Assembly (NCBI GenBank): GCA_014169315.1 | Contig: AP022133.1 | Coordinates: 3,162,001-3,226,000, forward strand | Length of the DNA: 64,000 nucleotides | Direction of reading: 5' to 3' | From: Enterobacter cloacae | GTDB taxonomy: Bacteria > Pseudomonadota > Gammaproteobacteria > Enterobacterales > Enterobacteriaceae | In this document: positions 46,739 through 59,640 of the stretch, piece after piece | Position numbering within the stretch: position 1 is the stretch's first letter | Layout: each line of letters begins with the position of its first letter | The notes under the pieces: model-generated | Database searches by the model: none | The model's input: only the letters and a program-made list of their open reading frames with translations | Told to the model about the DNA's origin: nothing | Translations under genes and position numbers: made by a program

Positions 46739-47569
46739 TCAAACTTCTTTTCGCACACGCTCAATGTGAATGGTGAGGAACATGATCTCCTCAGTGGTCA
46801 GTTCCCGCTGGTACGCCTTGCGCAAATGCAATGCAATTTTCTCGGCACATCTCCAGGCCCGGGAATAGTTTTCTTTGACTGCACTATGCAACGTTTCATC
46901 ATCATCCGGCACCACGGTACGTGTCAGCATGCGCTGAGCAAAGAATTTCAGATGAGTCACAAAGCGCTGGTAGCTCAGAGTACTTTCATCGTATTCCAGA
47001 TGCAGTTGATACTTCACCAGATTAAGGATCTCCTGCATCACCTGAGTGATGTGCATTACCTCAGGCATTTCGCTATTAAGCTGCGCGGTCACCAGATGAA
47101 GTGCAATAAATCCGGCTTCATCTTCCGCCAGATCAACATTGAGCCGTTGGCTGATAATCGTCCTCGCCTCCTGTCCCAGTTCAAATTCCCGTGGGTACAG
47201 GCGCTGGGTTTCCCATAACAGCGCATTTTTGATCGCCAGCCCTTTTTTTTGTCGTTCAATGGCGTAGTGGCAATGGTCAGTCAGGGTAATGTACAGACTC
47301 TCCTGTAGTTTTCCCAACCGCAAGCGCGCCAGTTCAATAATGCGGTCGCAGGTAGTCATCACCTCCAGCGGGATCTGATTCATCAGATCCCCCAAACGAT
47401 TAACCAGTTCATCACTTTGCAGTGCGAACACTTTCTCGATACGCGACTCATCCAGCGCGTCACCAACCCGCTTCTGAAACGCAAGACCACGCCCCATCAC
47501 AACCTGTTCGCGCTGCTGTGCATCGAGAATAACGACAACATTATTATTAAGAATTTTGGCGATGAGCAT
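46739..47569 (-). CDS. BglG/LicT-family transcription antiterminator
   Basis: 276-aa RNA-binding antiterminator. Layout: N-terminal co-antiterminator RNA-binding domain (residues 1-55, [37 protein letters not shown]), then two PTS-regulation domains with conserved histidines His99 and His158 (PRD1) and His206 and His268 (PRD2). In the family the PTS permease phosphorylates PRD1 to inactivate it when no substrate is transported, and HPr phosphorylates PRD2 to activate. The dimer would bind the RAT hairpins found in five leaders of this locus, including the one in front of this gene, which gives positive autoregulation. Confidence 0.96.
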
Positions 47570-47584
47570 CTGAACCCCAAAAAC

Positions 47585-47624
47585 AAAAAAACCTGACTCC
47601 TGACAGTCGCCAGAAATCAGGTTT
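47585..47624 (-). terminator. RAT-controlled terminator in the antiterminator-gene leader
   Basis: On the minus strand AACCTGA pairs with TCAGGTT and is followed by seven T residues. Its 5' arm overlaps the 3' end of RAT 1. Confidence 0.8.
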
Positions 47625-47649
47625 TGCCTGCAGTACGCAGTTACAATCC
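47620..47649 (-). promoter_or_regulatory. RAT 1: antiterminator site before the bglG-like gene
   Basis: On the minus strand GGATTGTAACTG, an 7-base loop region, then CAGGCAAAACC. It differs from the other four copies by A for T in GTTACTG. It lies 50 bases upstream of the gene and downstream of the OprD-type porin gene. Confidence 0.9.
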
Positions 47650-47735
47650 ATTCGTGTAATCTAACACTTCAGCGTTTTTATTTGAACCGCCTGGGTAAAA
47701 AACGTGATTCAGATCGCGCGCTATTTTTACCCAAT

Positions 47736-49079
47736 TCAGAACATATTAAAGCGGTACTCAATGATAATTTCAGAGGCTAGAGTATGTGCCCGCGTGTAGT
47801 GTCCGTCGGTAAGCACCGGTGTTTTTCCCTTGCTTTTGTATGACCATCCAGGACCAACCATTGCCCACACCGTCAGGTTTTTAAACACCGGATCGGTGGG
47901 AACCCAGCGACTGAAGGCGTTAATCTCACCGGAGCGGACATGGTTGCCCTTGTAGTTGAACTGCGCAATGTTACCAACCAGACCCACGGTCAACGCCGGT
48001 GTTAACTGATAATCAGCCATGTCGGCCATCACCAACTCACCATCACGCATGTAATCATCACCCGCGTAAGCCATTGAGATAAACGTTCCACGCGAGTTTT
48101 TACTCAGATGGCGTGGATAGAAACCAATTTCATTGGCTTTACTGGCATCGGTATAGCCGATACCCCATTTATTACTCCAGCGGTCTGCTTTCCAGGTAAT
48201 ATCAAGGGCGAAATGCCAGGCTTGATCGTCAAAATCGCGTTTATTGGCGGGCATGGCGCGATAGTCATCCAGTGCCTGAGTGGCGTAGATTTGGCTGCCA
48301 ATATTCAGCCGTGGAAGTGGCCTGAGGTTGCTAAACAACAGCTGGCGGCGCAGATAGTTTTGGCTTTCGCCATACGCATACTGAACATCCATCAGCGGTG
48401 TTTTCCACTTCACATCCCCTCCAACCAGAGAATCAATATCCCGCCCGGTATTGGTCTGGAAATGTACCTTTTCTGGCGAATTACGTTCCATCGCGTTTTC
48501 TAAATACGCCCCGTGAAGTGCCACATCTCCGTAGACCGCCCCACCGCTAATACCGGAGTAAGTGGTTGGAGAGAGTCGGGTGGAACTTGAAATCACGCCA
48601 TAGTTCTTGAATGTCTGCCAGCCCCAGCGGGCATTCAGTTGTGTGTCGCCCAGCGCATACTTCATTTTAATATTGCGTTGACCAAATTTAGAAAACCCTT
48701 CCGCATTGCCTTTTTTATTTCCTTTGCCCTTGTTGTACAGAATACCACGAGAATTAAAGTAATCACTTGCACCTAATTTTATGGCGCTATAATAAACAGC
48801 ATCAACACCGATAATGTCAGCAAAATACCCGGATTGATAGTCAACGGCGACCCCCTGCCCCCACGCACTGTGCACATGTTTAGGGTTGGCGATATCCTCC
48901 TTCAGATATTTCCAGTAATTCTTGGCAGACAGTGTTAAATGCGAATCGGAAATAAAAGGGGAAATATACCCTGCATCAGACTGGATAGCTGAAGATGCAA
49001 TTCCATTATTGTCGGTGGCCCAAATAGATGCAGAAACCCCAAGCGTAACAAACGCAAAAGCGATACGTGTCAGATTCAT
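47736..49079 (-). CDS. OprD-family outer-membrane porin
   Basis: 447 aa. A signal peptide (cleavage after SIWA, about residue 22) is followed by SDAGYISPFISDSHLTLSAKNYWKYLKED, the family's N-terminal strand, and many Tyr/Gly-rich amphipathic strands; it ends in Phe (EYRFNMF). OprD porins, including chitoporin-like enterobacterial members, admit specific small solutes. It is the second gene after RAT 2, 92 bases downstream of the histidine phosphatase, so it should be induced with the sugar operon. Confidence 0.9.
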   Translation of the reverse strand: MNLTRIAFAFVTLGVSASIWATDNNGIASSAIQSDAGYISPFISDSHLTLSAKNYWKYLKEDIANPKHVHSAWGQGVAVDYQSGYFADIIGVDAVYYSAIKLGASDYFNSRGILYNKGKGNKKGNAEGFSKFGQRNIKMKYALGDTQLNARWGWQTFKNYGVISSSTRLSPTTYSGISGGAVYGDVALHGAYLENAMERNSPEKVHFQTNTGRDIDSLVGGDVKWKTPLMDVQYAYGESQNYLRRQLLFSNLRPLPRLNIGSQIYATQALDDYRAMPANKRDFDDQAWHFALDITWKADRWSNKWGIGYTDASKANEIGFYPRHLSKNSRGTFISMAYAGDDYMRDGELVMADMADYQLTPALTVGLVGNIAQFNYKGNHVRSGEINAFSRWVPTDPVFKNLTVWAMVGPGWSYKSKGKTPVLTDGHYTRAHTLASEIIIEYRFNMF

Positions 49080-57971: not shown

Positions 57972-58034
57972 CATTCTGTTATTTGCCAGTAATAAAACAG
58001 CATGACGACTCTGGCTGTACTGGATGTTTATGTA

Positions 58035-59390
58035 TTAGAACGTCACCACCGTTTTCAGCTCTGTAACCCAGGCATCCTGGGTCTCTGAAACGCCACCAGG
58101 GTTATGCCAGTACTGAATACCCGGCTGCAGTTCGATCCACGAAACCGGACGGAAGCGATAATAGATCTCAGCATTCATAGAGTGGCCGGGTACAGGGCGA
58201 TAACCCAGATTGTTGTAGTCAGAAATGCCGCTGATGCTATTCATATACCGCTGATTATGCGCAAACTCGTTGCTCGCATTGAACCAGGTTGCACCAATAC
58301 CGATGGTGTCGTTCGGACGAGCATCGAACAGTCCACGGTAGCGGAACGTGGAAGCCAGCACGGAATGGATAACGTTCGTACTTTGGTCTGCAAGGCTGAA
58401 GCTCAGTGAGGTGCTCAAGCCACGATTTGGATCACCTTCATGCTGTGTCAATTGCTGGTTAAAACCGGTATACATAAACCAGGTATCACTATGTTTCGTA
58501 TAACCATTCGGATCGGTAGCACCGGCACCACCAGATTTCCCTCGATAGAGATCGGTTTGCGGCGCATTGGTGTAAAGCACACCGAAGTTGTAAATCCCCG
58601 GTAATCCATTGATGATAGGACGGGTTTCAATTTCTAGTGGCAGCAATACGCCTTTACTGCCTTTCGTCGACCAACTCCATGCATGACTGCGGCTGGTTGC
58701 ATCCGGGTTTTGCTCCATCACCCCACCTTTTAAGGTCACGGTTGGCGTAATTTTGTACTCCAGCGTGGTGCCCCAGGTATGCATGTTCCAGTTGCTCCAG
58801 GTCAGTGAGTAAGCAGACTTACCGCCGCACTGAGAGAGTAGTTGGGAATCACAAGGGATGATTTGGTCGAATGTCTGGACTTTGTTCATCATGCCGACAC
58901 GCCAGGTCAAGCGACGATCATCAAAGCTCCGAGCAAAAGTCAACCAGCCCAGACGAGTAATGGACCCCCCACCCCAGCTCTCCTGGGTCAGATCGTTAAA
59001 CGGAACGCGCGGATCCTGGACACGTTTGGTCGTCAGGTTGTCATCATGGTTACGGTTAACAATATTCCCTTCAATACGAGCATCAGGGATCCCGGTCCAG
59101 CGTTCTAGATCCTGATTGAAGGTCAGCGCGAACTGATCAATATAGGCCACGTGTGAATCATGGTTGTACCCGCCTCCACCGTTCCAGGCGATTTCGTTCA
59201 GATATCCCAGATTGTAGGTAAAGCCATTGTCGTTGAGGATCTTACGAATGCCGAGCATGTCGCCCAATACAGGGGCAGGTGGAGCTTCAAAACCCAGTAC
59301 CGTCCCGTTCCAATCTTGTGCCGTTGTGAATGGCGATACCGTCAATAAGGCAAGTGCGTAGAGCTTATAATGTATTTTTTTATATGCCAT
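58035..59390 (-). CDS. OprB-type carbohydrate porin
   Basis: 451-aa outer-membrane protein. Signal peptide ends SPFTTA (about residue 24), then QDWNGTVLGFEAPPAPVLGDMLGIRKILNDNGFTYNLGYLNEIAWNGGGG, the OprB/carbohydrate-selective porin N-terminus. The barrel ends in Phe (ELKTVVTF). It would pass the glycoside across the outer membrane. RAT 5 and its terminator lie upstream with a ~180-base leader. Confidence 0.9.
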   Translation of the reverse strand: MAYKKIHYKLYALALLTVSPFTTAQDWNGTVLGFEAPPAPVLGDMLGIRKILNDNGFTYNLGYLNEIAWNGGGGYNHDSHVAYIDQFALTFNQDLERWTGIPDARIEGNIVNRNHDDNLTTKRVQDPRVPFNDLTQESWGGGSITRLGWLTFARSFDDRRLTWRVGMMNKVQTFDQIIPCDSQLLSQCGGKSAYSLTWSNWNMHTWGTTLEYKITPTVTLKGGVMEQNPDATSRSHAWSWSTKGSKGVLLPLEIETRPIINGLPGIYNFGVLYTNAPQTDLYRGKSGGAGATDPNGYTKHSDTWFMYTGFNQQLTQHEGDPNRGLSTSLSFSLADQSTNVIHSVLASTFRYRGLFDARPNDTIGIGATWFNASNEFAHNQRYMNSISGISDYNNLGYRPVPGHSMNAEIYYRFRPVSWIELQPGIQYWHNPGGVSETQDAWVTELKTVVTF

Positions 59391-59573
59391 AATGAGACCT
59401 ATTTATTTATTCAATGCGTAACCGATGGCAGGAAATTTATATATTTCCCGTTATCATTTTATTTCAGATAATAGCTACCCCTGCGGTCAGTAATAACCGC
59501 AAAACGCTACTTTAAATAAAGTTAAACTAATAGGTAGAATGCGTCTAAATGTACCTCCTCATTAACGACAGGC

Positions 59574-59618
59574 AAAAAAAAACCTAAGTGCACCGCTTGC
59601 GCGGAACACTTAGGTTTT
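59574..59618 (-). terminator. RAT-controlled terminator before the OprB-type porin gene
   Basis: On the minus strand CCTAAGTG..CCGC-GCAA-GCGG..CACTTAGG is followed by nine T residues; the strongest of the five terminators. Confidence 0.92.
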
Positions 59619-59640
59619 GCCTGTTAGCCAGTAACAATCC
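59613..59640 (-). promoter_or_regulatory. RAT 5: antiterminator site before the OprB-type porin gene
   Basis: On the minus strand GGATTGTTACTG, a 5-base loop, then CAGGCAAAACC, overlapping the terminator's first arm. Confidence 0.92.

Follow-up and report, generated by a model that had tools for sequence, protein, structure and literature searches.

Results

The antiterminator gene and the RAT-terminator switches

The DNA analysed here is a 64,000-nucleotide stretch of an Enterobacter cloacae genome (assembly GCA_014169315.1, contig AP022133.1, positions 3,162,001 to 3,226,000), referred to below as the window. Between 46.7 and 59.6 kb it carries a gene for a BglG/LicT-type antiterminator, genes for a beta-glucoside phosphotransferase system (PTS), and five ribonucleic antiterminator (RAT) hairpins that overlap terminators. 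A reading made earlier from the sequence alone had assigned to this locus nine genes in three transcription groups, two of them with an internal RAT, and our gene calls and family profiles agree with it; all nine reading frames are open. On the minus strand, RAT2 (50065-50093) is followed by genes for a histidine-phosphatase-fold protein (49172-49990) and an OprD-family outer-membrane porin (47736-49079; PF03573, 1.1e-17), and then by RAT1 (47620-47649), which lies 5' of the antiterminator gene (46739-47569). On the plus strand, RAT3 (50310-50335) precedes genes for a SurE-family phosphatase (50430-51299), a beta-glucoside PTS enzyme II (EII) of the EIIBCA type (51423-53297, family profiles) and a GH1 6-phospho-beta-glucosidase (53315-54712, family profiles; 615.8 bits, slightly below the best subfamily cut-off of 623). 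The third group, on the minus strand, consists of RAT5 (59613-59640), an OprB-family carbohydrate porin gene (58035-59390; PF04966, 3.4e-68), RAT4 (57942-57971), a beta-glucoside PTS EIIBC gene without EIIA (56406-57842; family profiles and comparison with the longer EII of genome G019) and a carboxylesterase type B gene (54783-56312).

The five hairpins were confirmed at the coordinates and on the strands claimed by the sequence-only reading. The motif that it quoted, GATTGTTACTG...CAGGCAAAACC, has four exact matches in the window, against a mean of 0.00 over 100 shuffles; these are RAT2 to RAT5, exact copies of the form GGATTGTTACTG...CAGGCAAAACC. The motif does not hold for RAT1, which reads GGATTGTAACTG and is one base off, with A instead of T at position 8; the RAT at the corresponding place of a related locus (G129, L241) also has A.

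Folding of the leaders yielded an intrinsic terminator next to every RAT: terminator 1 at 47588-47625, terminator 2 at 50012-50070, terminator 4 at 57904-57947 and terminator 5 at 59579-59618, all on the minus strand, and terminator 3 at 50330-50382 on the plus strand. Each of them has a U-run and uses the AAAACC end of the RAT as its first arm, with z-scores of -2.7 to -6.5, so that the proposed sharing of this segment was borne out in every copy. RAT and terminator are mutually exclusive in all five leaders, and keeping the RAT bases unpaired removes the base of the terminator stem. None of the free leaders formed the whole RAT hairpin unaided, as is expected if the protein must stabilise it.

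The antiterminator contains a CAT_RBD domain (Pfam, 1.8e-21) and two PTS regulation domains (PRD, 6.2e-41). It scores above the curated NCBIfam cut-offs for both LicT (382.4 bits, cut-off 300) and BglG (373.8 bits, cut-off 322), in accordance with the earlier assignment. Four PRD histidines (ltdH, fialH, fvtH and ltiH) align with the solved LicT structure 1tlv, and we take them to be the phosphorylated residues of PRD1 and PRD2. This protein is the sole CAT_RBD match of the 5.0-Mb genome; a second antiterminator was considered and rejected on this ground, and the earlier claim of a single one stands.

To the leaders may be added two CRP-like sites, one with 9/10 consensus bases between the divergent RAT2 and RAT3 (50234-50249) and one with 8/10 upstream of RAT5 (59716-59731). 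The evidence for them is weak, as sites of this strength occur 21 times in the 64 kb.

Covariance model and covariation of the RAT hairpin

A covariance model (A3) was built from 43 RATs of one length, which included RAT2 of the window and none of the other four. The search of the window with such a model, which had been suggested along with the original claim, found the five RATs at 36.5-47.7 bits (E 3e-14 to 3e-10) and a next-best site at 11.7 bits (E 0.19). In the whole genome, where the first pass scored 150 of 5692 candidates, the five RATs had E values of at most 2.4e-8 and a sixth site had 0.081. We rejected that site as a further RAT, as it lies antisense within a 526-codon open stretch and shows no terminator in the surrounding 200 bases. 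An IUPAC pattern of the RAT matched exactly these five places in 4,998,275 bases, and the reversed control matched none.

Covariation among the 43 sequences of the model is seen in the apical stem, where pair 13-18 is CG in 29, UA in 11, AU in one and something else in two, being altered on both sides in 12/43 and unpaired in 2/43. The covariation score was 0.109 compared with 0.051 in shuffles, and 0/500 shuffles reached it; the numbers of cells paired and of cells changed on both sides were also matched by 0/500. Only the apical stem counts here; most positions outside it were set by the selection pattern, which left the outer stem pairs uninformative.

RATs and antiterminators across the family

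The strict RAT pattern, which undercounts in all genomes, was applied to 295 genomes of the family. RATs were found in 98 of them and CAT_RBD proteins in 111; every RAT genome has such a protein, and no RAT was found in the 184 genomes that lack an antiterminator. A further 34 genomes, some of them the same as family genomes, were reached via SurE-like loci. RATs occur in 29 of these, each with an antiterminator, and the four that lack an antiterminator have no RAT. Every one of 122 distinct RATs in the loci examined has a terminator overlapping its AAAACC; of 1833 AAAACC sites elsewhere in this DNA, 97 have one.

With these data, the view that the repeats arose by chance or belong to an unrelated mobile repeat is hardly credible. 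Nothing beyond the island setting of the locus speaks for it, and it was rejected on the shuffles of the motif, the reversed control, the covariation, the complete linkage to antiterminator genes in 295 genomes and the ordered position of the RATs before genes.

The sequence-only reading had called the regulon enlarged, with the two sites of E. coli bgl for comparison. Five RATs per antiterminator is indeed the highest ratio seen, but the word is too strong: the 76 single-antiterminator family genomes carry none (13 genomes), one (18), two (18), three (13), four (13) or five RATs (one, the window's own), and one of the 34 further genomes has seven RATs with three antiterminators. Five RATs were also found in two other family genomes, which have two and four antiterminators, and in three of the further genomes with two antiterminators. 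The ratio is thus the end of a continuous range and, given the 13 single-antiterminator genomes with four RATs, the excess is modest.

The positions of RATs were compared by hand with that of the only antiterminator gene in 25 genomes (16 from the SurE-locus set and nine from the family set, after five without listed positions and one duplicate had been dropped). In 15 of them one or more of the RATs are on a different contig or at least 73 kb away, although draft contigs listed separately may be neighbours; in ten this is not so. RAT and antiterminator share a contig in five of the 15, at distances of 1.4 Mb (G381), 1.0 and 1.8 Mb (G172), 1.0 and 3.6 Mb (G299), 73 and 693 kb (G376) and 1.4 Mb (G124). 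As these RATs are distant from the sole antiterminator gene, one antiterminator probably serves unlinked units in trans in many genomes. Separately, three Klebsiella genomes have two RATs in tandem at a spacing of about 97 nt; the gene that follows has a LamB-like N-terminus, as judged by eye, in L186 and L188 and is an EII gene in L191.

From these results, we consider it likely (with a probability of about 0.87) that one PTS-controlled antiterminator of the BglG/LicT type switches on the three units of the window via the five RAT-terminator leaders. By analogy with this class of proteins, the EII proteins would phosphorylate the antiterminator when no inducer is present, the RAT hairpins would stay unformed and transcription would halt at each terminator. 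During beta-glucoside import, the antiterminator dimer would bind the RAT and prevent AAAACC from entering the terminator stem, and transcription would continue. Since its gene lies behind both RAT2 and RAT1, the antiterminator probably gates its own synthesis twice.

A number of results weigh against this reading. The A at position 8 of RAT1 occurs in just 3/122 RATs, and in 13/111 genomes with an antiterminator the strict pattern finds no RAT. A generic terminator scan of the window, limited to loops of 3-8, gave 17 sites compared with 14.7 in shuffles, which is no excess, and of the five terminators it listed terminator 1 alone; a promoter scan of the window gave 14 sites compared with 15.0. 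The leaders do not reach the gathering score (80 bits) of the Rfam family RF03530 (bglG-cis-reg), which three of the five match at 30.8, 25.7 and 23.0 bits. Two of the five covariation measures fail against shuffles: pairs changed on both sides (53/500 shuffles reach the observed 2) and further pair types (497/500). Finally, the locus shows marks of decay, namely a relic sixth switch, an EII without EIIA, and adjoining integrase and insertion sequence (IS) debris.

Likely origin and decay of the locus

The 46.7-54.7 kb part has the same architecture as locus L241 of G129, which reads antiterminator-OprD-histidine phosphatase and, divergently, SurE-RAT-EIIBCA-GH1. Protein identities range from 69 to 88% (antiterminator 88%, SurE 80%, EIIBCA 79%, GH1 84%). 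L241 differs from the window in having no OprB-EIIBC-esterase unit within the 14 kb examined and in that its RAT between the surE and EIIBCA genes is intact. At the equivalent place of the window (51330-51397, plus strand), comparison with L241 and L039, in both of which this switch is intact, reveals a decayed sixth RAT-terminator, whose 3' half (GGCAAAACC) and terminator arms are kept and whose 5' half and U-run are lost. Its fold has a z-score of -0.46 (61/200 shuffles are as good) compared with -3.67 in L241; L042 and L049 have nothing recognisable there. No close relative of the SurE-like protein was found in 35 same-genus genomes searched, which gave weak matches of about 70-85 bits compared with 652.

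The 56.4-59.6 kb unit, RAT-oprB-RAT-EIIBC-esterase, likely derives from an operon of the genus. Two of the 35 genomes (G019, L245; G017, L246) carry RAT-oprB-RAT-bglG-RAT-EIIBCA-GH1, with OprB proteins 82-83% identical to that of the window and with sequences alignable to RAT4 and its terminator. In three genomes, RAT4, its terminator and its leader align with the leader after bglG at scores of 140-145, against 57-65 for the RAT before bglG, which makes RAT4 the equivalent of the RAT that lies between the bglG and EII genes of the usual operon. The window unit thus looks like an ordinary bgl operon that, unlike its relatives, has no bglG, EIIA or GH1 gene and has an esterase gene instead. The upstream flank of RAT4 matches neither bglG-flanking RAT. 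We considered, and left, the idea that RAT4 is a recombinant of the two. The decayed sixth switch and this likely bglG-less origin were both missed by the sequence-only reading, as were the unusual predicted secreted phosphatases and esterase described below.

Such features would also be expected of a decaying island fragment in which some leaders, for instance the substituted RAT1 or those of the EIIBC-esterase unit, no longer respond. The relic switch, the losses of the RAT4 unit relative to G017 and G019, an integrase fragment at 46020-46307 and partial IS3 similarity at about 46317-46484 point in this direction. We regard dead leaders as unlikely, however, because the nine reading frames are all open, the five RATs and terminators are undamaged, and the A at position 8 of RAT1 is common to the G129 RAT at the same place.

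As for the surroundings, the host site is a tRNA-Arg(CCT) gene with an integrase. The 16-bp 3' end of the tRNA recurs at 45636-45651, and the glucoside locus lies beyond this repeat, adjoining the integrase fragment. The island proper, 29628-45651, contains the integrase, an int-alpA RNA (31174-31239), a DUF927/Toprim primase and type I restriction-modification genes, and is followed by the segment 45740-46500 with the integrase and IS3 remnants. On the other side, 59390-61090 holds no reading frame of at least 110 amino acids. Megablast of 45400-60400 found no place covering 80% of the query in E. coli (690 records match, and the 20 listed cover 1% each) or in plasmids (426 match, the best covering 10%, with single EII or GH1 genes).

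Predicted secreted enzymes and their relatives

Secretion of the hydrolases of the window and of its relatives was judged by eye from their N-termini; the histidine-phosphatase-fold, SurE-family and esterase proteins of the window all have a signal-peptide-like one. The first (PF00300, 3.1e-33) keeps the RHG motif, the second Arg and the Glu, while its SHG motif is changed to SSG, the second His being replaced by Ser. The second His of histidine phosphatase branch 1 is catalytic, and the protein therefore does not qualify as a catalytically complete member of this branch. Ser occupies the position in 21 of 26 RAT-linked copies, the window included, and His in five. The SurE-like protein (PF01975, 5.1e-45; compared with solved SurE relatives) exceeds the TIGR00087 cut-off (145.6 bits, cut-off 135.1), stays under the cut-offs of 12 other SurE models listed, and retains the motifs NDDG, NQSG and SGVN-GPN, which are invariant across 11 aligned sequences. 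The esterase (PF00135, 3.5e-122) has its best match, at 95%, in a record named Citrobacter freundii. Close relatives of it occur in four of 295 family genomes, its own included, and the other three have no RAT within flanks of about 1.5 kb.

The product of the first gene downstream of the 122 RATs resembles an antiterminator in 34 cases, EIIBC in 30, a histidine phosphatase in 15, SurE in 13, EIIBCA in 10, OprD in eight, OprB in two and another protein in nine; one RAT has no such gene. SurE-like loci (L032-L066, n=35) have a RAT in 26 cases and none in nine, of which L037 ends at a contig edge. Forty further RAT stretches, mostly picked for unrecognised downstream genes, included OprD-histidine-phosphatase operons. 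Alkylsulfatase genes with signal-peptide-like N-termini stand straight behind RATs in two genomes (L207, 552-2603; L234, 2812-4773), and a gene of the 5'-nucleotidase family stands behind a RAT variant ending GGCTAAACC (L242, 465-1928; its frame is broken in L222). Also RAT-linked are an esterase gene with CBM48 that follows a LamB porin gene (L226), a gene of the phospholipase/carboxylesterase family before OprB (L243), and genes of the glucosamine-6-phosphate isomerase/6-phosphogluconolactonase family without an evident signal peptide (L214 by Pfam; L208 and L218 by similar N-termini). In relatives, then, genes for porins and predicted secreted phosphatases repeatedly stand behind RATs; those for sulfatases or esterases do so in a few cases. 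The link of porin and phosphatase is independent of RAT control, as OprD and SurE-like genes also adjoin in Vibrio and Photobacterium (L061, L063 and L064), where the locus has no RAT and the genome no antiterminator match. A RAT regulon with secreted phosphatases was not found among the papers listed in searches of the open-licence PMC literature, judged by title and the start of the abstract.

Discussion

The mechanism itself is well known and is seen here at the upper end of its range; what is new is the probable distributed regulon with its predicted secreted enzymes. The bglGFB operon of E. coli resembles the locus in its BglG-type antiterminator, RATs over intrinsic terminators, beta-glucoside EII and GH1 genes, and a switch before and after bglG, with two such terminators around this gene (PMC9499468). 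In contrast to it, the window has five RATs, three transcription groups, two EIIs, two porins and predicted secreted hydrolases. In bglGTH of Clostridium acetobutylicum, the RAT consensus GGATTGTTACTG-N6or7-CAGGCGAGACC is located upstream of bglG and of the EII gene, and read-through of the RAT-terminators under BglG control has been measured (PMC12628678). The window shares these features of the RAT, and the system differs in comprising one operon with two RATs. Expression of bglP in Streptococcus mutans needs LicT; bglP has a RAT and is transcribed apart from licT (PMC1489936). Unlike the window, this system has one RAT described and no secreted hydrolases mentioned in the accessible part of the paper.

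As to physiology, the regulon may scavenge decorated beta-glucosides, a reading to which we give somewhat less than an even chance. Porins would admit such compounds, the periplasmic phosphatase and esterase would strip the blocking groups, EII would import and 6-phosphorylate the bare glucoside, and GH1 would then cleave it. Candidate substrates have been described in animals. Whiteflies phosphorylate linamarin at glucose C3 and glycosides of the gypsy moth are phosphorylated at C3 (PMC8225905), a paper in whose reference list insect conjugates of the glucoside phosphate and glucoside sulphate types also appear. In beetle faeces, salicin phosphate and salicortin phosphate were tentatively identified, the latter being absent from 23 further species tested (PMC12745818). 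Most modular glucosides of Caenorhabditis elegans carry phosphate, and 3-phosphate and 6-O-acyl groups have been proposed for them, but their levels are higher within the worm than in its surroundings (PMC7641594). With an acyl group on O6 the PTS would be unable to phosphorylate that position, and a 3-phosphate should keep the glucoside out of EII; with such substrates an esterase and a phosphatase outside the membrane would make sense.

More tentatively still, enterobacterial BglG-type antiterminators in general may run a distributed, trans-acting RNA regulon that gives the beta-glucoside PTS interchangeable porins and periplasmic 'decapping' enzymes (phosphatases of the SurE type, the histidine fold and the 5'-nucleotidase family, alkylsulfatases and esterases). 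With these, the cells could eat decorated glucosides, such as the 3-O-phosphorylated, 6-O-acylated ones into which insects and nematodes convert plant and microbial compounds.

It is also possible, short of probable, that the regulation is as proposed and that the predicted secreted phosphatases and esterase have a general part in acquiring phosphate or nucleotides, or act at some other step unrelated to decorated glucosides. SurE proteins are named 5'/3'-nucleotidases; the histidine-phosphatase protein of the window, like 20/25 other RAT-linked copies, lacks the second catalytic His; and the esterase relatives in three other family genomes have no RAT in the flanks of about 1.5 kb. One relative has a SurE-like gene (L003 in G039, 54% identical) adjoining a putative trehalose-6-phosphate hydrolase gene, so named by reading alone. 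The glucosamine-isomerase-family genes behind RATs do not fit decorated glucosides either, and count against the substrate we propose. On the other hand, RATs of this type precede phosphatases with three different folds, two alkylsulfatases and two more proteins of esterase families, usually together with porins, which argues against simple scavenging.

If the proposed control of three units by one antiterminator is correct, antitermination would work as a code for a whole regulon and not as a device confined to one operon, and for any transcription unit the gain of a 30-nt RAT that overlaps a terminator could be enough to enter the regulon. The secreted SurE-like proteins would be given a testable role. 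The genes behind the switches point to a catabolic trait in which phosphate, sulfate or acyl groups would be taken off glucosides outside the cell membrane, ahead of their import by the PTS. If true, this could undo the storage or neutralising of plant and bacterial glucosides by insects and nematodes.

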